Source: Candidatus Tectimicrobiota bacterium
Lineage (GTDB): Bacteria > Tectomicrobia > Entotheonellia > Entotheonellales > Entotheonellaceae
Direction: 5' to 3'
DNA: 64,000 nt
Assembly (NCBI GenBank): GCA_026005175.1
Contig: BPKO01000002.1
Location: 280,501 to 344,500, forward strand
Positions 8,405-35,746 of the stretch are shown piece by piece. Every line of letters starts with the position of its first letter. The stretch's first letter is position 1. The notes below the pieces were generated by a model. That model had not been told where the DNA came from and did no database searches. It worked only from the letters and a program-made list of their open reading frames with translations. The position numbers were made by a program, and so were the translations under genes.

Positions 8405-8437
8405 TGACAAAGTGTCGGCCCGCTGGACGAACTGTCG
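8405..8437 (+). promoter_or_regulatory. Tandem GACA-N3-TGTC dyads, activator sites for the USP sigma-54 promoter
   Basis: Two 13-base dyads lie here: TGACA-AAG-TGTCG (8405-8417) and GGACG-AAC-TGTCG (8425-8437). Their centres are 20 bp apart, two helical turns. A half-site GGACA is at 8454. They end 65 bases upstream of a sigma-54 promoter, the usual placement for NtrC-family enhancer sites. The same motif recurs at 11563-11596 and 23056-23088. Confidence 0.65.
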
Positions 8438-8502: not shown

Positions 8503-8518
8503 TGGCACGACTCTTGCG
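8503..8518 (+). promoter_or_regulatory. Sigma-54 promoter of the universal stress gene
   Basis: TGGCACGACTCTTGCG matches the consensus TGGCAC-R-N4-TTGC-W at every conserved position except the last. Transcription would start near 8529, 31 bases before the ATG at 8560. Confidence 0.8.
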
Positions 8519-11562: not shown

Positions 11563-11596
11563 GGACAAAATGCATCCTCCAGGTGACAAAATGTCA
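11563..11596 (+). promoter_or_regulatory. Tandem GACA-N3-TGTC dyads upstream of gapdh
   Basis: GGACA-AAA-TGCAT (11563-11575) and a perfect TGACA-AAA-TGTCA (11584-11596, flanked to GTGACA/TGTCAC) have centres 21 bp apart. They end 54 bases before a sigma-54 promoter, so they look like enhancer sites for an NtrC-family activator. Confidence 0.65.
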
Positions 11597-11649: not shown

Positions 11650-11665
11650 CGGCACGCGCTTTGCT
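11650..11665 (+). promoter_or_regulatory. Sigma-54 promoter of gapdh
   Basis: CGGCACGCGCTTTGCT carries GGCACG and TTGCT with exact -24/-12 spacing. Transcription would start near 11676, 34 bases before the gapdh ATG. Confidence 0.75.
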
Positions 11666-11709: not shown

Positions 11710-12712
<1,003 letters not shown>

Positions 12713-12735: not shown

Positions 12736-14144
12736 ATGACGGAAGCCAAAGTCCTGGTGGTCGACGACGAAGTGGAGATGCTGACGCTGCTGCGCAGCTA
12801 CCTGAGCCGCGAGGGCTACGCGGTCAAAACCGCACCCAGCGCCGAAACGGCGCTGCAGCTTCTCGAAGAGCACGACTTCGACGTGGTGCTCACCGACTTG
12901 CGCATGCGCGGCATGAGCGGCCTGGAGCTGCTGCAGGAGATCCGGGCGGCGCGGCCCGAGACGCAGATCATCTTGATGACCGCCTTTGGCAGCATCGAGA
13001 CGGCCATCGAGGCGATCAAAGCCGGTGCCTACCACTTCGTCACCAAGCCGGTGAAGCTGCCCGAACTCGGGGTGCTGGTGCGCAAGGCGCTGAGCGACCG
13101 CGACTTGCACCGCGAGAACCGGCAGCTGCGGCAGGCGGTGGCCGAGCGCTACGCCTTTGGCCAGCTGCTGGGCAAAAGCGCCGTCATGCAGCGCCTTTTT
13201 GCCCAGCTCGAGCGCCTAGCGGCAACCAGCAGCACCGTCCTCATCCAGGGCGAAAGCGGGCACCGGCAAGGAGCTGGTAGCGCGGGCTTTGCACTACAAC
13301 GGCCCGCGCCAGCGCTACCCCCTTTGTCCCCGTCAACTGCGCTGCGCTGCCCGAGGGGTTGCTGGAAAGCGAGCTCTTTGGCCACACCAAGGGGGCTTTC
13401 ACCGGGGCACAGGTAGCGCGGCGGGGGCTGTTCCTGGAGGCTTCTAAGGGAACGCTGTTTCTCGACGAGATCGGCGAGATGCCTCTGGGCATGCAGGCCA
13501 AGCTGCTGCGCGCCCTGGAGCAAGGGCGCATCCGGCCGGTGGGCAGCGACCGCGAAGTGGAAATCGACGTGCGCGTCATTGCCGCCACCAACCAGGACCT
13601 GGAGGCGGCGGTGCGCCGCGGCACGTTTCGCGAGGACCTCTACTACCGCCTCAAGGTGCTGGTGGTGCGGGTGCCGCCGCTGCGCGAGCACCGCGAAGAC
13701 ATCGCCTTTTTGGCTGAGACCTTTCTGCAGCGCTACGTGGCGGCCAACCAGCTGCCGCCGCGGCGCTTCACGCACGCCGCCTTGCGCCGCCTGGAGCAGT
13801 ACGACTGGCCGGGCAACGTGCGGGAGCTGGCGCACGTCATCGAGCGCGCCGTGACCCTGAGCAATGGCGAGTGGATCGACGTGGCCGACCTGGGCCTGGA
13901 AGAAAGCCTCCCTGCCACGGCACCGGCCGCGGGGGGAGGGGAGGTCCCCTGGCCCGATCCCCGGCAGCTGCCTGCCGAGGCCTTTAACCTCGACAAGGTC
14001 ACGCAGCGCCTGGTCGTGGCCGCCCTGGAGCGCACCCGCGGCCACAAGGCCCGCGCCGCGGCGCTGCTGGGCGTTCACCCCCGCACCCTCACGCGCATGC
14101 TGCGGCGCTACGGGCTCTGCGCTCAAGAGGCAGCGGGCAGCTGA
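12736..14144 (+). CDS. NtrC-family sigma-54 activator, orphan response regulator (two one-base breaks)
   Basis: Residues 1-120 are a receiver domain with phospho-acceptor aspartate in [13 protein letters not shown] and the lysine in FVTKPVK. A sigma-54 AAA+ domain follows, with Walker A region GESGTGKE, the GAFTGA loop in [10 protein letters not shown] and a Walker B FLDEIGEM. The end is a Fis-type helix-turn-helix ([20 protein letters not shown]). An extra G near 13255-13259 and an extra C at 13318-13322 split the frame; corrected, it is 468 residues. It lies 23 bases after gapdh with no histidine kinase nearby. It is the best local candidate to bind the GACA-N3-TGTC sites. Confidence 0.92.
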
Positions 14145-14170: not shown

Positions 14171-14287
14171 ATGGCCAACGACCCCTCGTTTCGTCCCAAA
14201 GGGGCTTTGACGTTCATTCTCATCTACCTGGTGTTAATCACCCTTATCTGGATCAACGCCTACTTGCGCCTCTGGTTCAAGGGCTAA
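14171..14287 (+). CDS. Cytochrome c oxidase subunit IIa (ba3-type small subunit)
   Basis: 38-residue single-helix protein, MANDPSFRPKGALTF followed by ILIYLVLITLIWINAYLRLW. This matches subunit IIa of ba3-type oxidases, a lone membrane helix that substitutes for the missing first helix of subunit [15 protein letters not shown] precedes the ATG. It lies 26 bases after the regulator and directly before subunit II. Confidence 0.8.
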   Translation: MANDPSFRPKGALTFILIYLVLITLIWINAYLRLWFKG

Positions 14288-14290
14288 GCC

Positions 14291-14780
14291 ATGCGACGCG
14301 ATACCGTCCTATACCTTTACGAGCTGGCCTGGATCCTGCCCAGCTGTGGCCATCCCCGTGGGCATGCTGGCGGCGCTGCTGGTGACAGCCTTTGGGGCCC
14401 ACCTGGGCTTGCCCGGCGATGCCGGCCGCATTGACCCTACGCAGGTGGCCCAGACGCCGCCCTTCGACCGCCCCGGCGTGTTCGAAGTCGCCCCCGGGCG
14501 CTACGAGGTGGTGATGGTGGCCGGCATCTGGGTTTTTACGCCCAATGTCATTACTGTTCCCGAGGGATCCGAAGTGACCTTTATTGCCACCAGTCGCGAC
14601 GTGATTCACGGCTTCTTTTTGCCCCACGCCGACGTCAACGTTATGCTCTTGCCCGGCCGCGTTGCACGGGTTACGGCGCGCTTTCCTAAAGCCGGAGAAT
14701 ACCCCTTTGTCTGTCACGAGTACTGCGGCATTGCCCACCACACCATGGCGGGCAAAGTGATCGTCGTGCCACGGTCGTAA
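14291..14780 (+). CDS. cbaB: ba3-type cytochrome c oxidase subunit II (broken by one base)
   Basis: One membrane helix (about residues 14-37) anchors a periplasmic CuA domain. The ligand cluster CHEYCGIAHHTM and the histidine in DVIHGFFLPHADVN are intact. An extra C in the run at 14339-14341 shifts the frame after LAWILP; corrected, the protein is 162 residues, the expected short form for ba3 enzymes. It delivers electrons from cytochrome c to subunit I. Confidence 0.92.
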
Positions 14781-14801
14781 CCTGGCAAGGAGACACCGCC
14801 T

Positions 14802-16451
14802 ATGGCCCAGGCTGCTTTGCCTTCCCTGCGCTCCGAGCGCCGCCTGGGCGGCGCTTACCTGCTGGTGGCCCTGCTGGCCCTCTTTGTCGGCGTGGCCACC
14901 GGCCTTTTGCAGGCCCTCGACCATGCCGGCCTCAACCTCTACCCCCAGGTGCTGCCGCTGCTCAAGTCTTACTACCACGGGCTCAGCCTGCACGGGGTGA
15001 TGAACATCCTGGTGTGGACGACTTTTTTCATCTGTGGCTTTCTGCAGTATCTGGCGGCGCGCGCCTTTGCCCGTCCCTTAGTCTCCCCGGCCCTGGCGTG
15101 GTTCACGTTCTGGCTGATGACCGCCGGCCTGGTGCTGGCTGCTATTCCCTTGTTGGGCAACCACGCCACCGTGCTCTTTACGTTCTATCCCCCCATGCGC
15201 GCCCACTGGGCATTCTACGTGGGCCTGACCCTGGTGGTGGTCGGCACCTGGCTGGTCACTTGGCGGCTGGTGCTCACCTACCGCGCCTGGCGCCGCGAGC
15301 ACCCACAGACGCGCACGCCGCTGGCCGCTTTTATGGCCTTGGTGACATTTGTCATGTGGACGCTGGCCTCGCTGGGCCTGGCGGTCGAGATGCTGGTGCT
15401 GCTCATCCCCTGGTCTCTGGGGTGGCGCCAGGGCACTGACCCGCTGCTGGCGCGTACCCTCTTCTGGTTTACCGGCCACCCCATCGTCTACTTTTGGCTG
15501 CTGCCGACGTATATCTCCTGGTACACCCTGGTGCCGCGCCAAGCCGGCGGACAGCTCTTCAGCGACCCCATGGCCCGAGCTTCGTTCTTGCTCTTTTTGC
15601 TGCTTTCGACGCCGGTAGGCTTCCACCACCAGTATACCGACCCTGGCATCGAGCAGGGCTGGAAGCTGGTGCACGCCTTTTTTACCTTTGCCGTTTTCTT
15701 CCCCAGCCTGCTCACCTTCTTCAACGTCGTGGCCTCACTCGAAATCGGCGCCCGGCGCCGTGGCGGTCAGGGACTCTTTGCCTGGTTTCTCAAACTGCCC
15801 TGGGGTGATCCCTCGCTGGCCGCACAAGTGCTAGCTATGATCCTCTTCGCGTTTGGCGGCATCGGTGGCCTGGTGAATGCCTCGTACAGCCTGAACCTGG
15901 TGGTGCACAACACCACCTACGTGGTTGGCCACTTCCACCTCACGGTGGGCACGGCCGTCACCCTATCGTTTATGGGCATCACTTACTGGCTGGTGCCGGT
16001 GCTGCGCGGCCGTGACTTGTGGAGCCGGCGCCTGGCCCTGGTGCAGGTGTGGCTGTGGTTCGCGGGCATGACGGTGTTTTCCTTTGCCTTGCACGACCTG
16101 GGCTTGCAGGGCATGCCGCGACGCACCATGATCAGCCTGGCCACCTATGTGCAGGCGGCGTGGCGTCCCATGATGCTACTGGTGGGTATTGGCGGCACGG
16201 TGCTGTTTCTCAGTGCCCTCCTCTACTTTCTCAACCTGGTGCTGACCTGCCTGGCCTCGCCACGGCCGGCTCCCGAAGAGCCGGCGTTTGCCGAGGCGCT
16301 TTCGGGGCCAGAGGAGGCGCCGGCCATTCTCGACCGCTGGCGTCCCTGGCTGCTTGCCGCGGTGGTGTTCATTCTTATTGCCTACGGCCCCACCCTGGTG
16401 CACCTTTTCCGCACCACGCCGCTTACCGTGCCCGGCTGGCGCGTCTGGTAG
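14802..16451 (+). CDS. cbaA: ba3-type cytochrome c oxidase subunit I (B-type)
   Basis: 549 residues and about 13 membrane helices. FWFTGHPIVYFWLLP contains the CuB His and Tyr but lacks the D-channel Glu of A-type enzymes, and GFHHQYTDPG and VGHFHLTVG carry the CuB and haem ligands. These features mark a B-type (ba3) oxidase, a family with high oxygen affinity. It lies in a unit with gapdh and an NtrC-type regulator behind the sigma-54 promoter at 11650, so it may be used under stress or low oxygen. It ends six bases from the convergent riboflavin synthase gene. Confidence 0.95.
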   Translation: MAQAALPSLRSERRLGGAYLLVALLALFVGVATGLLQALDHAGLNLYPQVLPLLKSYYHGLSLHGVMNILVWTTFFICGFLQYLAARAFARPLVSPALAWFTFWLMTAGLVLAAIPLLGNHATVLFTFYPPMRAHWAFYVGLTLVVVGTWLVTWRLVLTYRAWRREHPQTRTPLAAFMALVTFVMWTLASLGLAVEMLVLLIPWSLGWRQGTDPLLARTLFWFTGHPIVYFWLLPTYISWYTLVPRQAGGQLFSDPMARASFLLFLLLSTPVGFHHQYTDPGIEQGWKLVHAFFTFAVFFPSLLTFFNVVASLEIGARRRGGQGLFAWFLKLPWGDPSLAAQVLAMILFAFGGIGGLVNASYSLNLVVHNTTYVVGHFHLTVGTAVTLSFMGITYWLVPVLRGRDLWSRRLALVQVWLWFAGMTVFSFALHDLGLQGMPRRTMISLATYVQAAWRPMMLLVGIGGTVLFLSALLYFLNLVLTCLASPRPAPEEPAFAEALSGPEEAPAILDRWRPWLLAAVVFILIAYGPTLVHLFRTTPLTVPGWRVW

Positions 16452-16457
16452 GCGGGG

Positions 16458-17066
16458 TTAGGCCTGGGGCGCGCCACTGCGGCTGGCGAGGAGCTTTTCG
16501 ACGTACTTGCCCAGGATGTCCACTTCCAGGTTCACCTGCCGGCCCGGGGTGTAGTGGCGCGCCACCGTCACGGCGCGGGTGTGGGGAATCAGCGACACGC
16601 GGAACCAGTCGGGGCCGGTGTCGACCACGGTGAGGCTCATGCCGTCGACGGCAATATAGCCCTTGGGCACAACGTACTTCATCAGCGCCGGCGGGACGCG
16701 GAAGGTCACCAGCACCCCGTCGCCGTCGGGCTGCGTGGCAACGATGTCGCCGGTGGCATCGACGTGCCCCTGCACGAAGTGGCCGCCCAGGCGGCCGGTG
16801 GCGGCCAGGGCGCGCTCGAGATTGACGGCATCGCCGACGCGCAGCTGCCCCAGAGTGGTCTTGCGCAAGGTCTCGGGGGCCAGCTCCACGGTAAAGCGCT
16901 GGGCATCGGCGCGCACCACGGTGAGGCAGACGCCGTTGACGGCAATGGAGTCGCCCACGCGCACGTCTTCCAGGACGCGCCGGGCGCCCAGGGTGAGCAC
17001 CACGCCGCCGGGGCGCTGCACCACCTCGAGGACGGTGCCCGTTTCTTCCACGATGCCGGTGAACAT
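16458..17066 (-). CDS. ribE: Riboflavin synthase, alpha chain
   Basis: 202 residues starting MFTGIVEETG, with the two repeated lumazine-binding barrels (first copy GDSIAVNGVCLTVV, second YIAVDGMSLTVV). It converts two 6,7-dimethyl-8-ribityllumazine molecules into riboflavin. GRLGGHFVQGHVD is the conserved central motif. The start after GAGGAGAAAAGGCC is preferred over an upstream in-frame codon. It is the last gene of a seven-gene minus-strand run starting with pncB; no other riboflavin gene is present. Confidence 0.95.
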   Translation of the reverse strand: MFTGIVEETGTVLEVVQRPGGVVLTLGARRVLEDVRVGDSIAVNGVCLTVVRADAQRFTVELAPETLRKTTLGQLRVGDAVNLERALAATGRLGGHFVQGHVDATGDIVATQPDGDGVLVTFRVPPALMKYVVPKGYIAVDGMSLTVVDTGPDWFRVSLIPHTRAVTVARHYTPGRQVNLEVDILGKYVEKLLASRSGAPQA

Positions 17067-17108
17067 GGCCTTTTCTCCTCTGCAGCGGATCGACCGCAAG
17101 TCCGCCCT

Positions 17109-18254
17109 TTACCAGGACACCCCAGGCAGCAAGGGGAGGAGGATCGAGACGGCGATGAGCACGATGATGATCCACTCGAGGATTTCCATGCGCCGGTTGG
17201 CGGCGCGGTCGGCCAGCTTCTGGTAAATGCTTTCTAAGGTTTGTAGCTTGCGCAGGATACTGGCGTCCCACTCCTCGAGGTGAAAGCGCTGCGAGGCCAG
17301 GCGGTAGACGCGCGCCAGGTACTGGTCGCCCAGCAGCTTGAGGGCGTTGTTGACGCCTTCGAAGAGCATGGCGCTGTCGACTTGCAGCTGGCCGATGCGC
17401 CGCAAGTCGGCGCCCGAAGCGCCCGGCAGCCACAGGCGGTGCCAGGAGCGGCGTGACAGCGTTTCGTAGGCCTGGTCGAGGGCCTCGTCGAGCTGGTCGT
17501 CGAGAAAGCGCAGCTCGAGCAGCTCGACGTTGGCAAACTCCAGCACGGCGCGCACGTCGTCCATGTCGCGGCCAATGAGCAGCGCGGCGTTCCAGTCGAT
17601 AACGGTGAGGTCGTCGAGGCCAAAGGAAAGGCGGCACGCCAGGGCGTCACGCACTTCCTGTGCCGACAGCTGCCGGTGCTCAAAGCGCAGCAGCTGGGCC
17701 AGGGCCTGGGCATGCGTGGTGTACAGCGCCGGGATGGGGCACGGCGTGCGAAAGGCCTCGATGTGGAAAACGGTGTAGTCCTCAACCATCTCGGCAATGG
17801 CAGGGCGGACCACGGCCGGGGCGATAAGGGCCAGGAGCTGCTCGACGCGCCGGCGCGCGTCCTCGAGCAGCTGCGGGTTGTCGTACAGCGCGTCGCTTAA
17901 GGCCAGCAGGCGTGCCAGCGGCCCCTCAAGGGGGAAAGTGTAGGTGAGTGACACGGCGCCAAAGTCGTAGAGCACCGCCTCCACCGTGGAGTTGCTGCGG
18001 TACTCCCCGAGGCAGAGTGGCTCGGTCTCCTGAACGATGCGCAGCGGTGCCGGATGGTAGGCAAAGTACTGCGGTGCGCGCCGCTTGTGGGCCAGCGTCG
18101 CCCGCTCGGTGGCCAGGGTGAGGTGCTGCTCGCAGGCCGCCAAATCGATGGCCAGGCCGATGTCATAAGCCAAGAAGACGTAACATGTCCCCTGCGCCAC
18201 GGCGAGGGACGTGGCCAACACCTCGAGGTGTGGGTGTGAGGCAGGCAGGTTCAT
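17109..18254 (-). CDS. RMD1/DUF155 family protein
   Basis: 381 residues. The centre has LYDFGAVSLTYTFPLEGP and the C-terminus has a coiled region (ILRKLQTLESIYQKLADRA) before one terminal membrane helix (ILEWIIIVLIAVSILLPLL), the layout of the RMD1/DUF155 family. The molecular role in bacteria is unknown; the fungal relatives are mitochondrial or sporulation-related. It lies between methionine adenosyltransferase and riboflavin synthase. CGGAG precedes the ATG. Confidence 0.8.
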   Translation of the reverse strand: MNLPASHPHLEVLATSLAVAQGTCYVFLAYDIGLAIDLAACEQHLTLATERATLAHKRRAPQYFAYHPAPLRIVQETEPLCLGEYRSNSTVEAVLYDFGAVSLTYTFPLEGPLARLLALSDALYDNPQLLEDARRRVEQLLALIAPAVVRPAIAEMVEDYTVFHIEAFRTPCPIPALYTTHAQALAQLLRFEHRQLSAQEVRDALACRLSFGLDDLTVIDWNAALLIGRDMDDVRAVLEFANVELLELRFLDDQLDEALDQAYETLSRRSWHRLWLPGASGADLRRIGQLQVDSAMLFEGVNNALKLLGDQYLARVYRLASQRFHLEEWDASILRKLQTLESIYQKLADRAANRRMEILEWIIIVLIAVSILLPLLPGVSW

Positions 18255-18286
18255 CGGACTCCGTTTGCTGCGCTAAGGACCGGTGG

Positions 18287-19492
18287 TCACCACACGGGGA
18301 TGGCGCCGTGCACCAAGCGCTCGATAAACGCCGGCATGTTGGCAAGCTCGGCCTCTACGAGGTCGGTGATGGGGCGTTCGACCTCGTAGAGGCCGGTGCC
18401 GGGGGCAAGCCGCACCTGCACCGAGGTGACCCACGGCCTGTCAATGGGGGCGCCGATCTGGCTGCACAGCCAGACGTAGACTTCTTCTACCGGCTCGAGG
18501 GCCTCGTAAAGGCGCTCGGCCAGGTGGTGGGCGAGCAGCGAGTAGATCTTGCCCACGTGGCTCACGGGATTTTTGCCCGCTGCCGATTCGCTCCCAGCAG
18601 GGCGGTTGAGGCTGATGACTCCGTTGACGCGGTTGCCGCGCCCCACCTGGCCGCCGTCGCCGCTTTCGGCCGAAGTGCCCAGCACGGTGAGGTACATGCC
18701 GCCTAGGCCGCGGCCGGGGGCGTCCAGGGTGTTGAGGTGCACCGACACGCTCTCGAGCTGGCGCAGCTCGCCTTCCAGGTAGCGCTGCAGCGCCTCGGCC
18801 ACCGCCGCCTTGCGCTCAAAGTACGTCCGTTCGTCGGGGATGAAGCGGTCCACGAAAGCCAGCGCCACGGTGAGGGAGAGGTGGCGCTCCTGGCGGCAGC
18901 CCATGATTTTCACGTCTTCCCCTGTTTCGGGAAAGCGTGCTTTGAAAGCCGGTGAGTTGAGGTAACGTTCTGCCGCCAGCACGCAGCGCTCGGTCTCCGT
19001 CAGCGGCGCATAGCCCACCGCCGCCGAGGTGTCGTTGGCCCCCAGCGGCTGGCGGGCAAAGAGGTCGACGAGCTCCGGCGAGCCGGGGCGCAGCTCGTTT
19101 TGCAGCACCAGGTGGTGCTGCGGGTCAACAAAGCGCAGGTGCTCGCCAATCCAGCGCCGCACCGTTTCCGCAACGAGCTCGGCCACCGGCAGGGGCTCGC
19201 CTTGCCACGCCAGGGTGGCCCGATCCCCCACGATGAGGCGCATGGGCACCTCGACGCGGCCACCCCCCAGGGCCGGTGTGGTCTGTCCGGCCACCAGCAG
19301 CCCCTTGTCGAGGTTGTAGTGCAGCACGCGGCCAGCGGCGGCGAGGTAGGCCTGGCAGAGGGCCACGGAGACGGCCTCCATGAGGGCGTCGCACAGGGTG
19401 TCGGGGTGACCGAGGCCCTTGCGCTCCACCAGCTCCAGGCGCTGCTGGCTCACCGGAACCCCGGGCAAGTGCTCGAGGATGAGGCGCGACAC
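18287..19492 (-). CDS. mat: Archaeal-type methionine adenosyltransferase
   Basis: 401 residues from a GTG start. ERKGLGHPDTLCDALMEAV, LHYNLDKGLLVAG and VNGVISLNRPAGSESAAGKNP are characteristic of the archaeal S-adenosylmethionine synthetase family (PF01941), not the usual bacterial MetK. It makes S-adenosylmethionine from methionine and ATP. Some bacteria carry this form as a second enzyme. It lies 12 bases after the HPF-cold-shock gene in the same run, which suggests a condition-specific isozyme. Whether a standard metK exists elsewhere is unknown. Confidence 0.93.
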   Translation of the reverse strand: MSRLILEHLPGVPVSQQRLELVERKGLGHPDTLCDALMEAVSVALCQAYLAAAGRVLHYNLDKGLLVAGQTTPALGGGRVEVPMRLIVGDRATLAWQGEPLPVAELVAETVRRWIGEHLRFVDPQHHLVLQNELRPGSPELVDLFARQPLGANDTSAAVGYAPLTETERCVLAAERYLNSPAFKARFPETGEDVKIMGCRQERHLSLTVALAFVDRFIPDERTYFERKAAVAEALQRYLEGELRQLESVSVHLNTLDAPGRGLGGMYLTVLGTSAESGDGGQVGRGNRVNGVISLNRPAGSESAAGKNPVSHVGKIYSLLAHHLAERLYEALEPVEEVYVWLCSQIGAPIDRPWVTSVQVRLAPGTGLYEVERPITDLVEAELANMPAFIERLVHGAIPVW

Positions 19493-19504
19493 GGCCAGGG
19501 TTTC

Positions 19505-20032
19505 CTAGCGGGGCAGGCGCAGCGGCAGGACGCGCGAAGCCTGGGGACCGGCATGGCCCTGCTCGATGTCGAGCTCCACAGGCATGCCCACTTCGAGCGC
19601 CTCAAAGGGGATCTCGTGCACGGAATTGGCGTGGAAGTAGACCTCACGGTGCGACTCGGTCTCGATAAACCCGTAGCCGCGATCGCGAAACAGGCGCACG
19701 ATGCGGCCGCGCGGCCGCGGGCCAGGCTCCTTGAGGACTTGCCGCCGCTTGTCGCGAAACGCCTGAAGCTCGCGCCAGATGACATCGAAGACGCCATAGA
19801 CGGCGTCCTCGATGGTATCGCCTTGACACGAAGCGCTCAGGGTCTTGCCGGGCAGGGTGAGCACCACACGTGCCTCGTCGCTGCCTTTGAGGTGATGGCC
19901 GCTCTTGACCACCGTCACCCGGGCGTGCAGGATGTCGTGGTGCGAGTCGTTGAGCTCTTCCAGGCGCTCGGCAATCCAGCCCCGTAAACCCGGTTCGAGT
20001 TCCGTGTGCTGCGCTTCGATGCGGATCTGCAT
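19505..20032 (-). CDS. Ribosome hibernation factor (HPF/RaiA) fused to a cold-shock domain
   Basis: 175 residues. Residues 1-95 follow the HPF/RaiA/YfiA fold (MQIRIEAQHTELEP and VVLTLPGKTLSASCQGDTIEDAV). Residues about 108-172 are a cold-shock RNA-binding domain (GRIVRLFRDRGYGFIET with VYFHANSV). HPF proteins bind in the 30S decoding groove and hold idle ribosomes; the attached CSD would add RNA binding. GGAGGGAGG precedes the ATG. It is nine bases after the eRF1-like gene. Confidence 0.9.
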   Translation of the reverse strand: MQIRIEAQHTELEPGLRGWIAERLEELNDSHHDILHARVTVVKSGHHLKGSDEARVVLTLPGKTLSASCQGDTIEDAVYGVFDVIWRELQAFRDKRRQVLKEPGPRPRGRIVRLFRDRGYGFIETESHREVYFHANSVHEIPFEALEVGMPVELDIEQGHAGPQASRVLPLRLPR

Positions 20033-20041
20033 ACCTCCCTC

Positions 20042-21175
20042 CTACTTGTAGCGCAGTAAGGCACCCACCCCTTCGTACGCTGCCAGCCGCGGATCGGGCG
20101 CGATGAGCTCCACCTCGCCGTCAAGCGCCAGCACCCTGGCCACCAGCGCTTCTCCGAGGTCAACGGCAGCGGGCGTCCCACCGCAGGCCGGACACGCCGC
20201 CGGCGGTGCCTCTTCTCCCAACCAGCCGCAGGCGGTGCAGCGCCAGCCGGGATGGCGCAGGTCGCGGTGCATGACCAGCTTGTGCACGCGCCCGGTGTTG
20301 GCAGCGGCCAGCGTCTCCTGGCGGCCCACCACTGCCAGGCCGCCGCGCGCAGCACGCGACAGCAAGAGCTCCACCGTGGCCTGTTCTTCCTCGCGCTCGT
20401 GGCGTTCCAGAACTTGGCGGGCCACTTCTACGATGCGTGTTTCTGGCGCATGGAGGTCGAGCGACGCCGCTTCGAGCACCTGTGGCTGCACGGCAGGCGG
20501 CAAGAAACGCCGGAAGTTGGCCCGCACCTCCTCGGGGCCAGCCAGGATAAGGCGGGCGTGGGGTTGCCGCTGCAGGCAAGCGATCAGGTAGTCCGCCACT
20601 TCCTTGTGGTGGCGGTCGATATGGTCCTTGACGTGGCGCTGGTAGCGCATCTGCGCCCAGCCACCTTGCTTGTGGCGCCCGGGCACTTCGGCGTTGAAGG
20701 CGGTTTCGGAAAGCAGGCCGCCTAAGACCACCTCGCAGACGCGGGCGGCGCGCGAGTCCACCAGCACCACCAGGGCATTGGTGTAGTCCTCGTCCAGGCG
20801 GGCCAGCTGCCGCAGCGCCGGGCGCTCGGCAATCGTGAACTCGTTTTCGAAGGGCACGGGCGCCGGTAGCTCCACCCACAGCCCGGCACCGTTGCAAGCA
20901 AAAAGGGCATAGCCGGGGGCCGTCACCTCCAGGGTGCGATGCCGCAGCTTTTCTTGCCACGCCTCGAGGCGGGCGAGATCGGCGTCCAGGCTGGCTTGCG
21001 CTTCGGCCTGCTCAAGCGTGAGCAGGCGAGCCTGGCGCAGGTGGCGGGTGAGAAACGTGAGGACCTGCTCGCGCTGGTGCTGGTCGCGCCACTGGGTGTC
21101 GAGGTAGACGCTCACCACCGGCAGCGTGCCGCCGGAGAACTTGGCCAGCTCGCGTAGTTCTTTGGTAATTTCCAT
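20042..21175 (-). CDS. Bacterial eRF1-family (baeRF) protein, candidate ribosome rescue factor
   Basis: 377 residues. The N-terminal domain contains GGWAQMRYQRHVKDH, the position of the catalytic Gln loop (GGQ-like) in eRF1/Vms1-type peptidyl-tRNA hydrolases. The central segment ARLILAGPEEVRANF resembles eRF1 domain 3. A C-terminal zinc ribbon has CTACGW and CPACGG. Such proteins are predicted to act on stalled or idle ribosomes. ATG 21175 is seven bases after GGAGG; a GTG at 21181 would overlap the DksA-like stop. Neighbours are an HPF fusion and a DksA-like gene, supporting a ribosome-linked role. Confidence 0.8.
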   Translation of the reverse strand: MEITKELRELAKFSGGTLPVVSVYLDTQWRDQHQREQVLTFLTRHLRQARLLTLEQAEAQASLDADLARLEAWQEKLRHRTLEVTAPGYALFACNGAGLWVELPAPVPFENEFTIAERPALRQLARLDEDYTNALVVLVDSRAARVCEVVLGGLLSETAFNAEVPGRHKQGGWAQMRYQRHVKDHIDRHHKEVADYLIACLQRQPHARLILAGPEEVRANFRRFLPPAVQPQVLEAASLDLHAPETRIVEVARQVLERHEREEEQATVELLLSRAARGGLAVVGRQETLAAANTGRVHKLVMHRDLRHPGWRCTACGWLGEEAPPAACPACGGTPAAVDLGEALVARVLALDGEVELIAPDPRLAAYEGVGALLRYK

Positions 21176-21177
21176 CC

Positions 21178-21531
21178 TCACGCCTCCGCCGAGACTTCTT
21201 GCGTTTCCTGGCAGCGCACACAGCGGCGCGCCGTAGGCAGCACTTCCAGGCGCGCCCGCGGAATTTCCTTACCGCAGGCCTCGCAGCGGCCGTACGTGCC
21301 CGCCTCGAGGCGTGCCAACGCCGCCTGGATCTCTTCCCACTCGCGCCGGCTCTGCTCGTCGAGCAGCTCGAGGTCGAGTTCCGTGTCTTCAGCCTGAGCG
21401 CGGTCGCCGTATTCGATTTCGCGCTCGCTGGCAGCGGCCAGCTCGGCCTCCAGGTCGTAAATGCGGCGCACGAGAGCGCGTTGCTGTTCCAGGAGGCGCT
21501 GGCGGAAGGCTTCCCGCGTGGCGGCGTCCAT
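21178..21531 (-). CDS. DksA/TraR-type zinc-finger protein
   Basis: 117 residues: a long charged coiled coil (about 1-80) and a C4 zinc finger (CEACGKEIPRARLEVLP followed by CVRCQ) close to the C-terminus. DksA proteins insert the coiled-coil tip into the RNA polymerase secondary channel and modulate the stringent response with ppGpp. AAGGAG precedes the ATG. It lies 12 bases after pncB and two bases before the eRF1-like start. Confidence 0.92.
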   Translation of the reverse strand: MDAATREAFRQRLLEQQRALVRRIYDLEAELAAASEREIEYGDRAQAEDTELDLELLDEQSRREWEEIQAALARLEAGTYGRCEACGKEIPRARLEVLPTARRCVRCQETQEVSAEA

Positions 21532-21543
21532 GCTCTGTGCTCC

Positions 21544-22920
21544 TTAACCGGTGTAATGCTGGAGCAGCTCGCTCTCCACCTCTTGCTGCACGGCGCGCAG
21601 TTCGGCGCTGAGCCGCACCGGGTAGGTGGCGCCACCGCTGAGACGGCGGTATGGCTCGGGCAGCCGGCGCATGGCTTCCAGGTGTCGATCGCGAGCCTCG
21701 TGCAGGCTGGGCAGTGTTCCCAGGCGCCGGCCGTCGCGCATCACCTCCTGCAAGAGCGGCTCCGCCGCGGGCGCTGGCGGCGCTTCGTCGCGCAAGGTTA
21801 AAATGTCCTCTACATAATGACCGTCTCTGGTGCAGCGCCACACCTGCTTGTCTTCAGGGAGGGTGGCCTTGTCGGCACTCAGCTTGGCCACCGGGCGGCC
21901 GTCGTACTTGACCAGCTTGTAAGCGATGTCGTAGTACGGCGCGCCCGCTGACACCCCCATGCGTGTTCCCACACCAAAGACGTCAACGCAGCCCCCGGCG
22001 CGCAGGATGGCGTCGATGGCGTATTCGTCGAGGCCGCCGCTGGCGACGATACGCACCTCGTTGAGCCCGGCGGCATCGAGCATGGCCCGCACCTGCTTGC
22101 TCAGCGCCGCGATGTCGCCGCTGTCAAGGCGCACTCCGCGCAGCTTGTGGCCAGCCCGCGCCAGCTCCTGGCCCACCTGGACGGCGTGGCGGGCGCCCAC
22201 TAGGGTGTCGTAGGTGTCGATGAGCAGCACCGTCTGGTCGGGATAGGTAGCGGCAAAGGCCCGAAAGGCCTCCAGCTCGTCGGCAAAGCTCATGATGTAC
22301 GAGTGGGCCATGGTGCCCGAGATGGGAATGCCGTAATAGCGACCGGCCAGGACGTTGCTGGTGCCCTCAAACCCGGCCAGGTAGCTGGCCCGCGCCACTT
22401 TCATCGCCGCGTCGGTGCCGTGCGTGCGCCGCAGGGCAAAGTCGATGAGGGCCCGCCCCCGCGCCGCCTGCACGCAGCGCGCCGCCTTGGTGGCCACTAG
22501 CGTTTGCAGGTGAACGGCATTGATGACAAAGCTCTCGACCAACTGGGCGTCGATGATCGGCGCCGTCACTTCCAGGATCGGCTCGTTGACAAAGAACACC
22601 GTGCCTTCGGGCATGGCCACCACGTCGCCACGGAAGCGCCAGTTGGCCAGGTAAGCAAGGAAGTCCTCGGTAAAGCGCCCCGTCTGGCGCAAGTAGGCCA
22701 GCGCCGAGGGTGGAAAGTGGACCGCTTCCAGGTACTCCAGCACGGTGGCCAGCCCCGCGGCCACAAAATACGTGAAGTCTGGCGGATAGCTGCGAATGAA
22801 GAGGCTAAACGTCGCCGTACCGTTGTGGCGGTGATGAAAGTAGCTCTGGGCCATGGTGAGCTGGTAGAGATCCGTCAGCAGCCCCAACTCGTCTACCCCG
22901 ATGCCCGTTGCCTCGGCCAT
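21544..22920 (-). CDS. pncB: Nicotinate phosphoribosyltransferase
   Basis: 458 residues. LLTDLYQLTMAQSYF starts the enzyme; FALRRTHGTDAAMKVARA and RLDSGDIAALSKQVR are the phosphoribosyl and nicotinate-binding motifs, and FGVGTRMG follows. It salvages nicotinate into the NAD pathway in the cytosol. The start follows AAGGAGT. It is the first gene of the seven-gene minus-strand run, 53 bases from a perfect sigma-54 promoter. Confidence 0.95.
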   Translation of the reverse strand: MAEATGIGVDELGLLTDLYQLTMAQSYFHHRHNGTATFSLFIRSYPPDFTYFVAAGLATVLEYLEAVHFPPSALAYLRQTGRFTEDFLAYLANWRFRGDVVAMPEGTVFFVNEPILEVTAPIIDAQLVESFVINAVHLQTLVATKAARCVQAARGRALIDFALRRTHGTDAAMKVARASYLAGFEGTSNVLAGRYYGIPISGTMAHSYIMSFADELEAFRAFAATYPDQTVLLIDTYDTLVGARHAVQVGQELARAGHKLRGVRLDSGDIAALSKQVRAMLDAAGLNEVRIVASGGLDEYAIDAILRAGGCVDVFGVGTRMGVSAGAPYYDIAYKLVKYDGRPVAKLSADKATLPEDKQVWRCTRDGHYVEDILTLRDEAPPAPAAEPLLQEVMRDGRRLGTLPSLHEARDRHLEAMRRLPEPYRRLSGGATYPVRLSAELRAVQQEVESELLQHYTG

Positions 22921-23055: not shown

Positions 23056-23088
23056 CGACAGGTTGTCCGCTCTGGGGACAAGTTGTCC
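23056..23088. promoter_or_regulatory. Tandem GACA-N3-TGTC dyads between two divergent sigma-54 promoters
   Basis: CGACA-GGT-TGTCC (23056-23068) and the perfect GGACA-AGT-TGTCC (23076-23088) have centres 20 bp apart. They lie 67 bp from the minus-strand promoter and 53 bp from the plus-strand promoter, so one activator could serve both. A further half-site GGACA is at 23028. Together with the two promoters this accounts for the gene-free interval 22921-23289. Confidence 0.7.
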
Positions 23089-23141: not shown

Positions 23142-23157
23142 TGGCACGCTTTTTGCC
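23142..23157 (+). promoter_or_regulatory. Sigma-54 promoter of the glycosyltransferase gene
   Basis: TGGCACGCTTTTTGCC matches TGGCAC-R-N4-TTGC with exact spacing. Transcription would start near 23168 and leave a 120-base leader. Confidence 0.75.
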
Positions 23158-23289: not shown

Positions 23290-24393
23290 ATGCGGATCGC
23301 GCAAGTGGCACCTTTGTACGAGAGCGTGCCGCCTAAGCTCTACGGCGGCACGGAGCGCGTGGTCTCGTATCTCACCGAAGAACTCGTGCGTCAAGGGCAC
23401 GAGGTGACGCTTTTTGCCAGTGGCGACTCGCAGACGCGAGCCCGGCTGGTGTCGCCGTGCGCGCGGGCTTTGCGGCTCGACGCGCGCTGCCGCGACCCGC
23501 TCGTGTACCACATCCTCATGCTCGAGCAGGTCTTTCGCGAGGCGGCCGATTTTGACCTCATCCACTTCCACATCGACTACCTCCACTTCCCGCTGGTGCG
23601 GCGGCAGCTGACCCCGGCCCTCACCACCCTGCACGGGCGGCTGGACCTTCCCGACCTGGTGCCGCTGTACCGCGAGTTTGGCGACCTGCCGGTGGTGTCG
23701 ATCTCCAATGCCCAGCGGCAGCCGCTGCCTTGGCTCAACTGGCAGGGGACGGTGTACCACGGCCTGCCGCCCGACCTCTACACGTTCCAGCCGCAGCCGG
23801 GTTCGTATCTGGCCTTTTTAGGCCGCATTTCGCCGGAGAAGCGGCCCGACCGGGCCATCGACATCGCCCTGCGCACCGGCATGCCCCTTAAAATCGCCGC
23901 CAAAGTGGACCGCGTTGACCGCGCCTACTTTGAAGAGGTCATTCGGCCGCGGCTGCGCCATCCCCTGGTGGAGTACCTGGGCGAAATCGGCGAAGCCGAA
24001 AAGAATGCCTTCTTGGGCAACGCCTACGCGTTGCTCTTTCCCGTGGACTGGCCCGAGCCCTTCGGCTTGGTGATGATCGAGGCCCTGGCCTGCGGCACGC
24101 CGGTGATTGCCTACCGCTGCGGCTCGGTGCCAGAAGTGCTCGAACACGGGGTCACCGGCTACATCGTCGACGGCCTGGAAGAAGCGGTGCGGGCCGTGGA
24201 ACGCATCCCCTTGCTGAGCCGCCAGCAGTGCCGGCAGGTGTTCGAGGCGCGGTTTTCGGTTGCCCGCATGGCCCGCGACTACCTGGCCATTTACGAGCGG
24301 CTGCGGCACACCCGCCCGCCGGCCGTGTCCGTAGGCTTGCCGGCAGACGGCAGGCCGGTAGCGACTGCCGATTCCGTGGTCACCGCCGCCTAG
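23290..24393 (+). CDS. Family 4 glycosyltransferase
   Basis: 367 residues with the GT-B fold. KLYGGTERVVSYLTEEL is the glycine-rich acceptor-side loop, YLAFLGRISPEKRPD starts the donor-binding half, and EPFGLVMIEALACGTPVIA is the EX7E nucleotide-sugar motif. Substrates are unknown; proteins of this kind make glycans, trehalose-like sugars or envelope polysaccharide. GAGGAGGTG precedes the ATG. Its sigma-54 promoter and shared enhancers tie it to the divergent dormancy-type operon. Confidence 0.88.
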   Translation: MRIAQVAPLYESVPPKLYGGTERVVSYLTEELVRQGHEVTLFASGDSQTRARLVSPCARALRLDARCRDPLVYHILMLEQVFREAADFDLIHFHIDYLHFPLVRRQLTPALTTLHGRLDLPDLVPLYREFGDLPVVSISNAQRQPLPWLNWQGTVYHGLPPDLYTFQPQPGSYLAFLGRISPEKRPDRAIDIALRTGMPLKIAAKVDRVDRAYFEEVIRPRLRHPLVEYLGEIGEAEKNAFLGNAYALLFPVDWPEPFGLVMIEALACGTPVIAYRCGSVPEVLEHGVTGYIVDGLEEAVRAVERIPLLSRQQCRQVFEARFSVARMARDYLAIYERLRHTRPPAVSVGLPADGRPVATADSVVTAA

Positions 24394-24421
24394 GCGCCCG
24401 GCAGGCCGGCACGCTTCGCCT

Positions 24422-24450
24422 TTGGCTTTCCAGCGCCGGTGGTGTACACT
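24422..24450 (+). promoter_or_regulatory. Sigma-70-like promoter for ftsH
   Basis: TTGGCT (24422-24427) and TACACT (24445-24450) with a 17-base spacer, about 180 bases ahead of the ftsH start. Moderate match. Confidence 0.35.
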
Positions 24451-24629
24451 GAAGCAGGAACGCCGGCCTCTGCGGCCTGCAGGGGTGGTGTGTGTCACCC
24501 CAGGGGCGTACTACCCGCAGGTGCGGCGCTCCCTGTTCCTGCGTTGGCCTGTCGTAGGGCGGCCGCGGGGCGGTCCCAGGGAGCCCCGCCAGAGGCTCTA
24601 TTGCGGCGGTGTTGCACGGAGAGAACCGC

Positions 24630-26504
24630 ATGAGTCAGCAGCCCAACAATCGCGGTCGCAACAGCTTCAGGCCAGGCGGCGGCCCCTTTCCCCTGTGGTA
24701 TCTCCTGGTGGCCATTGGCCTGATGCTGGTCATCCAGAACCTGCTGTTTACCCAGCCCTTTGAGCAGCTGCCTTACAGCGAGTTCAAGGCCTACTTGCGG
24801 CAGGGGAAAGTGGCGGAGGTGCAAATCGGCGAGCAGACCATCCGCGGCAAGCTGCGCCAGCCACCGGGAAGCCCCCAGGATCCGCCGCGGCGCTTTACCA
24901 CCGTGCGGGTCGAAGATCCCGACCTCATTCGCGAGCTGGAAGCCCAGGGTGTGGCCTACCGCGGGCAGTACGAGAACGAGTTCGTCAAGACCCTGCTTTC
25001 CTGGCTGGTGCCCCTGGGCTTGCTTTTTCTCTTTTGGATGCTGATGGCGCGGCGCTTTGGTCCCGGGCAGGGGGTGATGAACTTCGGCAAAAGCCGTGCC
25101 CGTATCTACGCCGAGCGCGCCACCGGGGTGACGTTTGCCGATGTGGCAGGAGCCGACGAGGCCAAAGAAGAGCTGCAAGAAATCATCGACTTCTTGCGCC
25201 AGCCGCAGAAGTACGCTGCCCTTGGTGGCCGCATTCCCAAAGGCGTCCTCCTGGTCGGCCCCCCGGGCACGGGCAAGACCCTGCTGGCGCGCGCCGTGGC
25301 CGGGGAGGCCTCAGTGCCCTTTTTTAGCCTGAGCGGCTCGGACTTTGTAGAGATGTTTGTGGGCGTGGGGGCGGCTCGCGTGCGCGACCTCTTCAAGCAG
25401 GCACAGGAAAAAGCCCCTTGCATTGTCTTTATCGACGAGCTCGACGCGGTGGGCAAAGCGCGCGGCATCAATCCCATCCAGCAAAACGACGAGCGCGAGC
25501 AGACCCTCAACCAGCTGCTGGCCGAAATGGACGGCTTTGATCCCCGCAAAGGGGTGATCATTCTGGCGGCCACCAACCGGCCGGAGATCCTCGATCCCGC
25601 CTTGCTGCGCGCCGGCCGCTTCGACCGCCAGGTGGTGGTGGATCGTCCTGACCTGCAGGGGCGCCTGCAGATCCTGCAGATCCACGCCCGCAAGGTGCGC
25701 CTCGCCCCCGACGTCGACTTGCAGGTGATTGCCGCCCGCACCCCGGGCATGGTGGGCTCCGACTTGGCCAACGTCATCAACGAGGCGGCCCTGCTGGCGG
25801 CCCGCCACGGCAAGAGCGCCGTCACCATGGAAGAGCTCGACAAAGCCATCGACCGCATCATGGCCGGGCCGGAGAAGAAAAGCCGCGTGCTGGCCCCGGA
25901 GGAAAAGCGGCGCGTGGCTTACCACGAGTCGGGCCACGCCCTGGTGGCCGAGGCGGTGCCCACCGCCGATCCGGTGCGCAAGGTGACCATCATCCCCCAT
26001 GGGGTGGCCGCCCTGGGCTACACGCAGCAGCTGCCTACCCAGGACCGTTACCTCTACACCAAAGAGGAGCTGCTTGACCGCATCACCGTGCTGCTGGGCG
26101 GCCGCGCCGCCGAAGAGGTCGTTTTTGGGAGTGTCTCCACCGGCGCCCAAGACGACTTGCAGCGGGCCAGCGAGCTGGCACGTCGCATGGTGACCGAGCT
26201 GGGCATGAGCGAGCTGCTCGGCCCCTACGCCGTAGAGCAGGGACGCCAGCCCCTCTTCTTGCCCAACGGCTACCAGCCGGTGAAGACATACAGCGAGGCC
26301 ACGGCGCAGCGCGTGGACCGCGAGGCGCAGACCATCGTGGAGCGCATGTACCAGCGGGCACGGCGCATCCTGGAGGCACACCGCGACAAGCTGGAAACCC
26401 TGGCGCAGTACCTGCTCGCCCACGAGGCGATCGACCAGCCCACTTTGGCTACCCTGCTGGGCAACGTGCGCACGGAAGCCGAGCCGCAGCTCGTCGATTG
26501 GTAA
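24630..26504 (+). CDS. ftsH: ATP-dependent zinc metalloprotease FtsH
   Basis: 624 residues. Two membrane helices (about 17-37 and 113-133) flank a periplasmic loop. The AAA+ domain has Walker A GPPGTGKT (about 210), Walker [13 protein letters not shown] and the second region of homology with [18 protein letters not shown]. The zinc protease motif HESGH lies near residue 432. FtsH degrades membrane and short-lived regulatory proteins. ATG 24630 is preferred; an ATG seven codons upstream lacks a ribosome site. Confidence 0.97.
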
Positions 26505-35733: not shown

Positions 35734-35746
35734 TGACATGTTGTCA
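35734..35746. promoter_or_regulatory. Single GACA-N3-TGTC-type dyad between gdhA and the Liv operon
   Basis: TGACA-TGT-TGTCA is a perfect 13-base dyad with the same half-sites as the tandem sites at 8405, 11563 and 23056. Here it is single and lies downstream of the gdhA promoter candidate, so it could be an operator or serve the minus-strand operon. Confidence 0.45.

Follow-up and report, generated by a model that had tools for sequence, protein, structure and literature searches.

A predicted sigma-54-dependent operon in a Candidatus Tectimicrobiota bacterium carries genes for two putative ribosome hibernation factors

A seven-gene array and the question it raises

What brings genes of cofactor metabolism, transcriptional control and ribosome inactivation together behind a single promoter? 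The question is raised by a seven-gene array of Candidatus Tectimicrobiota bacterium (Entotheonellaceae; assembly GCA_026005175.1, contig BPKO01000002.1), located in a stretch of 64,000 nucleotides (positions 280,501 to 344,500 of the contig), here called the window, whose own numbering is used for all coordinates. An earlier note, made from the sequence of the window, had described the array as a dormancy operon joining ribosome hibernation, ribosome rescue, stringent control and cofactor supply. We consider it probable that the array is one operon of an enhancer-dependent sigma-54 survival regulon, the likely trigger being a fall in oxygen or respiratory energy. To our knowledge, the control of Balon genes is largely unknown, and hibernation has usually been studied factor by factor.

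The array consists of seven open reading frames (ORFs) on the minus strand (22920-16458), separated by 12, 2, 9, 12, 32 and 42 bases; the ORF coordinates confirm the adjacency and short gaps (2-42 bases) of the original description. From pncB onward the genes are:
21544..22920, minus strand: nicotinate phosphoribosyltransferase (NAPRTase, pncB; 614.6 bits, above the NCBIfam cut-off; also Pfam)
21178..21531, minus strand: DksA/TraR-type C4 zinc-finger protein, 117 aa (zinc finger present; Pfam; NCBIfam DksA_like 71 bits, below the cut-off of 105)
20042..21181 (or 21175), minus strand: putative Balon-family hibernation factor by profile and fold (baeRF family 10; GGW in place of GGQ)
19505..20032, minus strand: HPFcold, an S30AE/hibernation-promoting factor (HPF) domain with a cold-shock domain (CSD), 175 aa (PF02482 and PF00313)
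18287..19492, minus strand: archaeal-type methionine adenosyltransferase (MAT), the second MAT of the genome (PF01941; NCBIfam)
17109..18254, minus strand: 381-aa protein with a hydrophobic C-terminal helix, family not assigned (no Pfam or NCBIfam match)
16458..17066, minus strand: riboflavin synthase (ribE; Lum_binding; Pfam and NCBIfam)

The gap of 2 bases between the second and third genes applies with a start at 21175; a GTG start at 21181 would give a 4-base overlap. Gene order and gaps suggest that all seven genes are co-transcribed; the region scan found no sigma-70-like site inside the array, and terminator-like signals in the array region were not above chance.

Sigma-54 promoters and enhancer dyads

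The upstream region of pncB contains the following elements:
22988-22973, minus strand: sigma-54 promoter (-24/-12) TGGCACAGGCGTTGCT of the seven-gene operon, a perfect consensus match
23077..23087, unstranded: enhancer dyad GACAAGTTGTC of the GACA-N3-TGTC type, a putative upstream activating site common to both divergent promoters
23057..23067, unstranded: enhancer dyad GACAGGTTGTC of the same type, 20 bp from GACAAGTTGTC
23142..23157, plus strand: divergent sigma-54 promoter TGGCACGCTTTTTGCC, facing the glycosyltransferase and FtsH genes
23290..26504, plus strand: glycosyltransferase and FtsH, behind the divergent promoter

The single sigma-54 promoter of the earlier note is thus confirmed, but its divergent partner and the two shared dyads had been overlooked. 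TGGCACAGGCGTTGCT matches TGGCAY-N5-TTGCW in a non-coding upstream region, is followed by a ribosome-binding site and an ATG, and has enhancer sites 79 and 99 bp upstream. Since TGGCAYN5TTGCW occurs at 37 sites genome-wide, versus 1 site for the reversed pattern, sigma-54 promoters are a real class in this genome, which also encodes NtrC proteins with the AAA+ domain; the array promoter is predicted to depend on sigma-54 and an AAA+ activator.

An exact dyad stands within 170 bp upstream of five of the 37 consensus sites (mean 0.04 and maximum 2 in 2000 Markov-shuffled sets), and a tandem dyad with at most two mismatches at three of them, where 0.001 would be expected. With slightly relaxed sigma-54 sites, this enhancer-promoter module is found at 16 candidate promoters of the present genome and at about eight of another genome of the same family (G001), the dyads lying roughly 40-110 bp upstream and mostly 20 bp apart. 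The list, drawn from pattern searches and about 0.3 Mb of genome stretches that were read, is incomplete, and some of the 16 candidates have weak -12 elements (e.g. C11:119033 and C6:111115) and are possibly chance partners of a shared enhancer.

The two predicted hibernation factors

The HPF-cold-shock protein aligns with PDB 9t0z along both domains, PF02482 being followed by PF00313 in one short protein, and is by its sequence of the recently described HPFcold type, a fusion in which the cold-shock domain covers the anti-Shine-Dalgarno sequence (PMC13392368). The HPFcold of that report belongs to a different lineage, whereas here the gene shares one array with a Balon gene under predicted sigma-54 control.

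The adjoining gene had been labelled eRF1-like and credited with ribosome rescue. In its product the GGQ motif of release factors is replaced by GGW, so that the catalytic signature of aRF1 and eRF1 is missing. When solved structures were searched with a six-sequence profile, the best match was the MSMEG_1130 Balon protein (E 3.4e-28), followed by aRF1 (3e-21). An AlphaFold2 model (pLDDT 83) with the three-domain aeRF1-like fold superimposes on solved Balon (8v9l) with a VIA Z of 31.3 over 366 residues (rmsd 3.4), versus 18.4 for aRF1, the best non-Balon structure; the six best structural rows are all Balon proteins. The protein shares with published Balon factors (PMC10901736) its full-length fold, the absence of GGQ and an HPF/RaiA neighbour in a stress operon, but differs in a C-terminal zinc-finger-like CxxC...CPxC motif, in an identity of only about 20% to MSMEG_1130, and in scores far below the family cut-offs. 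Judged by sequence and model, it is a divergent member of the Balon family outside the named subfamilies, and because its best profile and fold match is Balon and GGW replaces GGQ, hibernation is a better reading than rescue. An invariant PGRHKQGxW(A/S)Q motif carries a glutamine two positions beyond the site of GGQ, and this residue would allow a hydrolase role. The sequence gives good support to joint sigma-54 control of the two predicted hibernation factors.

Other genes of the array

The pncB, DksA-like, HPF-cold-shock, archaeal-type MAT and riboflavin synthase families were named correctly at the outset, whereas eRF1-like gives way to Balon, and "RMD1-like", the label of the 381-aa protein, finds no support: RMD1/DUF155 was rejected, since Pfam gave no match up to E 10 and NCBIfam none at all, and a single-sequence AlphaFold2 model of this protein (pLDDT 37) is unusable. 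The proposed role in cofactor supply is plausible for the MAT (PF01941 over its full length, 497 bits; NCBIfam 599 bits versus a cut-off of 557), which is an extra isozyme, a canonical metK being encoded elsewhere. It is weak for riboflavin synthase, which is probably not stress-specific because no second copy of its gene was found in the genome (listed completeness 77%).

The wider regulon

Four module promoters fall within the window: those of the array and of the glycosyltransferase-FtsH operon (23142), and two on its left. The features to the left of the array, which is met convergently by the heme-copper oxidase operon (the two ends are 6 bases apart), are:
8503..8518, plus strand: sigma-54 promoter of an operon of two universal stress proteins (USPs), an APH/AAA_33 kinase and a USP, with dyads at 8406 and 8426
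11650..11665, plus strand: sigma-54 promoter CGGCACGCGCTTTGCT of a GAPDH-NtrC regulator-heme-copper oxidase operon, with a dyad at 11585
12736..14144, plus strand: NtrC-type response regulator (receiver, sigma-54 AAA+ domain with GAFTGA, Fis helix-turn-helix), the likely activator, itself inside the regulon
14346..16451, plus strand: heme-copper oxidase subunits II and I, convergent with the array

Candidate module-bearing operons elsewhere in the genome encode:
CBS proteins; USPs
Hsp20 with a Lon-type protease
an RpoS/RpoD-type sigma factor, then Hsp20
class I aldolase and phosphofructokinase
a calcium-type P-type ATPase, then adenosylcobalamin-dependent NrdJ/Z
a molybdopterin oxidoreductase and its iron-sulfur (FeS) protein
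a short NAD-dependent DNA ligase

The candidate regulon genes are thus stress, low-oxygen and energy genes. The DNA ligase gene is preceded, as the first gene behind a perfect enhancer pair, by a gene for a 266-aa protein of unknown nature. A tiny ORF between the regulator and oxidase subunit II (14172-14288; about 38 aa, one transmembrane helix) resembles the IIa subunit of ba3-type oxidases. A lone exact GACA-N3-TGTC dyad, GACATGTTGTC (35735-35745), had no sigma-54 partner in the scan and may mark a regulon promoter or be due to chance.

Candidate activator, sensor and mechanism

The regulator at 12736-14144 is most likely the activator of the regulon, as suggested mainly by co-occurrence of module and ortholog. 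Its ortholog in G001 is intact (463 aa; 61% identical over the receiver and 68% over the AAA+ and helix-turn-helix domains, other full-domain matches being 55% identical or less) and is encoded in a DnaJ-CbpM-APH/AAA_33 kinase-regulator operon behind the same module. The best matches in three further genomes (G002, G003 and G004) are 46-54% identical, in the range of paralogs, leaving G001 with the only close ortholog; tandem enhancers with fewer than two mismatches are absent from G002 and G003, and the total in G004 equals its reversed-pattern control count.

The genome encodes both this regulator, behind a promoter of its own regulon, and a putative partner on contig C11, a protoglobin-HisKA kinase followed by a receiver-PAS protein. 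The kinase gene is divergent from an operon of DUF5335 and tandem USP genes, a perfect tandem enhancer lying between them. This position beside a regulon operon suggests oxygen as the signal, which is plausible, the chances for and against being about even.

In the proposed mechanism, the phosphorylated NtrC-type regulator would bind the tandem GACA-N3-TGTC sites (23057-23087) and open sigma-54 polymerase at both flanking promoters. From the leftward transcript, HPFcold would occupy the decoding site and the mRNA channel and mask the anti-Shine-Dalgarno sequence, while the Balon-type factor would lie in the A site and in the outer part of the peptidyl-transferase centre, the two together parking and protecting ribosomes. 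The same transcript would yield the DksA-like protein, the NAD-salvage enzyme and the second S-adenosylmethionine (SAM) synthetase, of which the latter two may maintain NAD and SAM supply.

Conservation in other genomes

In G001, which belongs to a related genus, a gene for HPFcold is followed by one for Balon, in the reverse order to the array, behind the same sigma-54/enhancer module; G001 has no counterpart of the array MAT or of the 381-aa gene, and no close pncB. With two predicted hibernation factors behind a regulon promoter here and the same pair under the same module there, the dormancy interpretation of the earlier note is supported and sharpened. In G001 the Balon gene overlaps at its end with a gene for a 180-aa protein of no known family, possibly one more component of the hibernation operon. 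Contig C248 of G001 has an enhancer-bearing sigma-54 promoter before a pyridoxal phosphate (PLP) enzyme and a B12-dependent ornithine/lysine aminomutase, which suggests amino acid fermentation in the regulon.

Balon genes are missing from G002 and G003, whose HPF-CSD genes lack the module; in G004, homologs of MAT and pncB lie on other contigs, also without it. Enhancer control was rejected for the MAT, pncB and Balon-like genes of G004 and for the HPF-CSD genes of G002, G003 and G001 (contig C72), where the promoter module was not found. Gene order was surveyed in genomes of the same family and class, around MAT in 386 sampled genomes, around the Balon-like gene in 145, and in plasmid records. 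Only fragments of the array came to light, and those that recurred had USPs, DksA or GAPDH close to Balon, or an APH/AAA_33 kinase close to MAT. In distant genomes the neighbours of Balon relatives are USPs, DksA or GAPDH, and those of MAT are an APH/AAA_33 kinase or USPs; the plasmid MAT genes (Phenylobacterium, Methylocystis, Burkholderia, Bosea) keep company with stress or energy genes, with no HPF, Balon or pncB. Selection appears to act on the regulon and the HPFcold-Balon pair and not on the array.

Comparison with the DosR and NmpR regulons

The regulon shares with the DosR regulon of Mycobacterium tuberculosis (PMC4090907, PMC3095998) an HPF (Rv0079/RafH), Balon (Rv2629), nrdZ and the ctpF cation ATPase, and further matches are USPs, hspX (Hsp20), hrp1 (CBS), a phosphofructokinase and a two-component regulator, autoregulated in DosR and predicted to be so here; RafH is under DosR control in hypoxia (PMC10799931). 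The circuitry differs, an NtrC/sigma-54 system with GACA-N3-TGTC enhancers standing in place of NarL-family DosR and a protoglobin kinase being the sensor candidate in place of DosS/DosT; moreover, the phosphofructokinase is of the PF00365 type rather than PfkB, HPFcold takes the place of RafH, and the MAT and DksA-like protein are additional. We take Rv0573c of the DosR regulon to be a NAPRTase and Rv2004c to be an APH-AAA_33 protein; the likeness between the two regulons is one of listed content.

The NmpRSTU system of Myxococcus xanthus (PMC11841059) likewise has an NtrC-type regulator, sigma-54 promoters preceded by tandem dyads, autoregulation (predicted in the present case) and a protoglobin kinase, and its targets include a USP, a CBS protein, a P-type ATPase and a high-affinity oxidase, as here. 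Its enhancer consensus is GCGCA-N5-TGCGC, as opposed to GACA-N3-TGTC, and no hibernation factor is reported in the Nmp regulon, the words ribosome and hibernation being absent from the main text (PMC11841059). By definition the regulon is neither a DosR nor an NmpR regulon, and it appears to work like both. Titles and abstracts of the literature searched mention no system in which sigma-54 controls hibernation factors.

Alternative explanations

Several observations weigh against an oxygen-responsive operon of seven genes. The order of the array recurs in no other genome examined, in part the result that the earlier note itself had named as counting against its proposal. A sigma-70-like site upstream of the array (23033-23005, minus strand; the single such site in the region scan) may add basal transcription. 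NCBIfam ranks the MSMEG_1130-family hibernation factor first for the Balon-like protein, but the scores for the named RHF subfamilies (68.3, 58.8 and 30.1 bits) are all below the cut-offs (480, 320 and 330, respectively). The promoter of the protoglobin kinase looks sigma-70-like, without a clear sigma-54 site, and the pairing of the kinase with the regulator is putative. The reading frame of the regulator is broken by two 1-base homopolymer frameshifts near Walker A (13262-13270 and 13312-13320), and that of GAPDH in the same operon by one at a run of G (12100-12130); because +1 errors recur at homopolymers, these are probably assembly errors rather than decay, and such errors may also explain the low completeness estimate.

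It is rather unlikely that the seven genes piled up by chance downstream of a stress promoter, with HPFcold and Balon alone serving hibernation and the other five being passengers or separately promoted. The lack of a conserved order, the reversed pair by itself in G001 and the probable need of single-copy ribE for constitutive expression would fit such a pile-up, but the short gaps, the lack of internal sigma-70-like sites, the enhancer module before the first gene, pncB, and the extra isozyme status of the MAT do not. The same sigma-54 regulon might instead answer to general energy or nutrient starvation, the protoglobin kinase being an unrelated neighbour, and the general stress genes (Hsp20, Lon, FtsH, USP, the RpoS/RpoD-type sigma factor) as well as the lack of a clear sigma-54 site for the kinase are consistent with this; we nevertheless think it unlikely, as the heme-copper oxidase, the molybdenum oxidoreductase with its FeS protein, NrdJ/Z and the glycolytic enzymes fit low oxygen, and the kinase adjoins an enhancer-bearing regulon operon. 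More improbable still is a role of the eRF1-like protein in peptidyl-tRNA hydrolysis or rescue, in the manner of Vms1/VLRF1, instead of hibernation: the invariant motif with its nearby glutamine and the Pfam similarity to acVLRF1 and eRF1_2 point that way, whereas tryptophan replaces the catalytic glutamine of GGQ, Balon ranks first by profile and fold, and the gene adjoins that of HPFcold.

Implications

An enhancer-dependent sigma-54 operon for survival of a fall in oxygen or respiratory energy thus remains the reading we prefer. With HPFcold and Balon behind one promoter, and with a candidate activator, enhancer and co-regulated genes that can be read from the DNA, the joint action of the two factors becomes open to direct test. 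Tentatively, the regulon may be a sigma-54/NtrC, oxygen-responsive equivalent of the DosR regulon in an unrelated and little-known lineage, in which HPFcold, Balon, a DksA-like protein and NAD and SAM enzymes were placed on one enhancer-dependent switch and a near-identical gene set was assembled independently. If so, recurrence of a DosR-like gene set under unrelated circuitry would point to a functional module for surviving the loss of oxygen.

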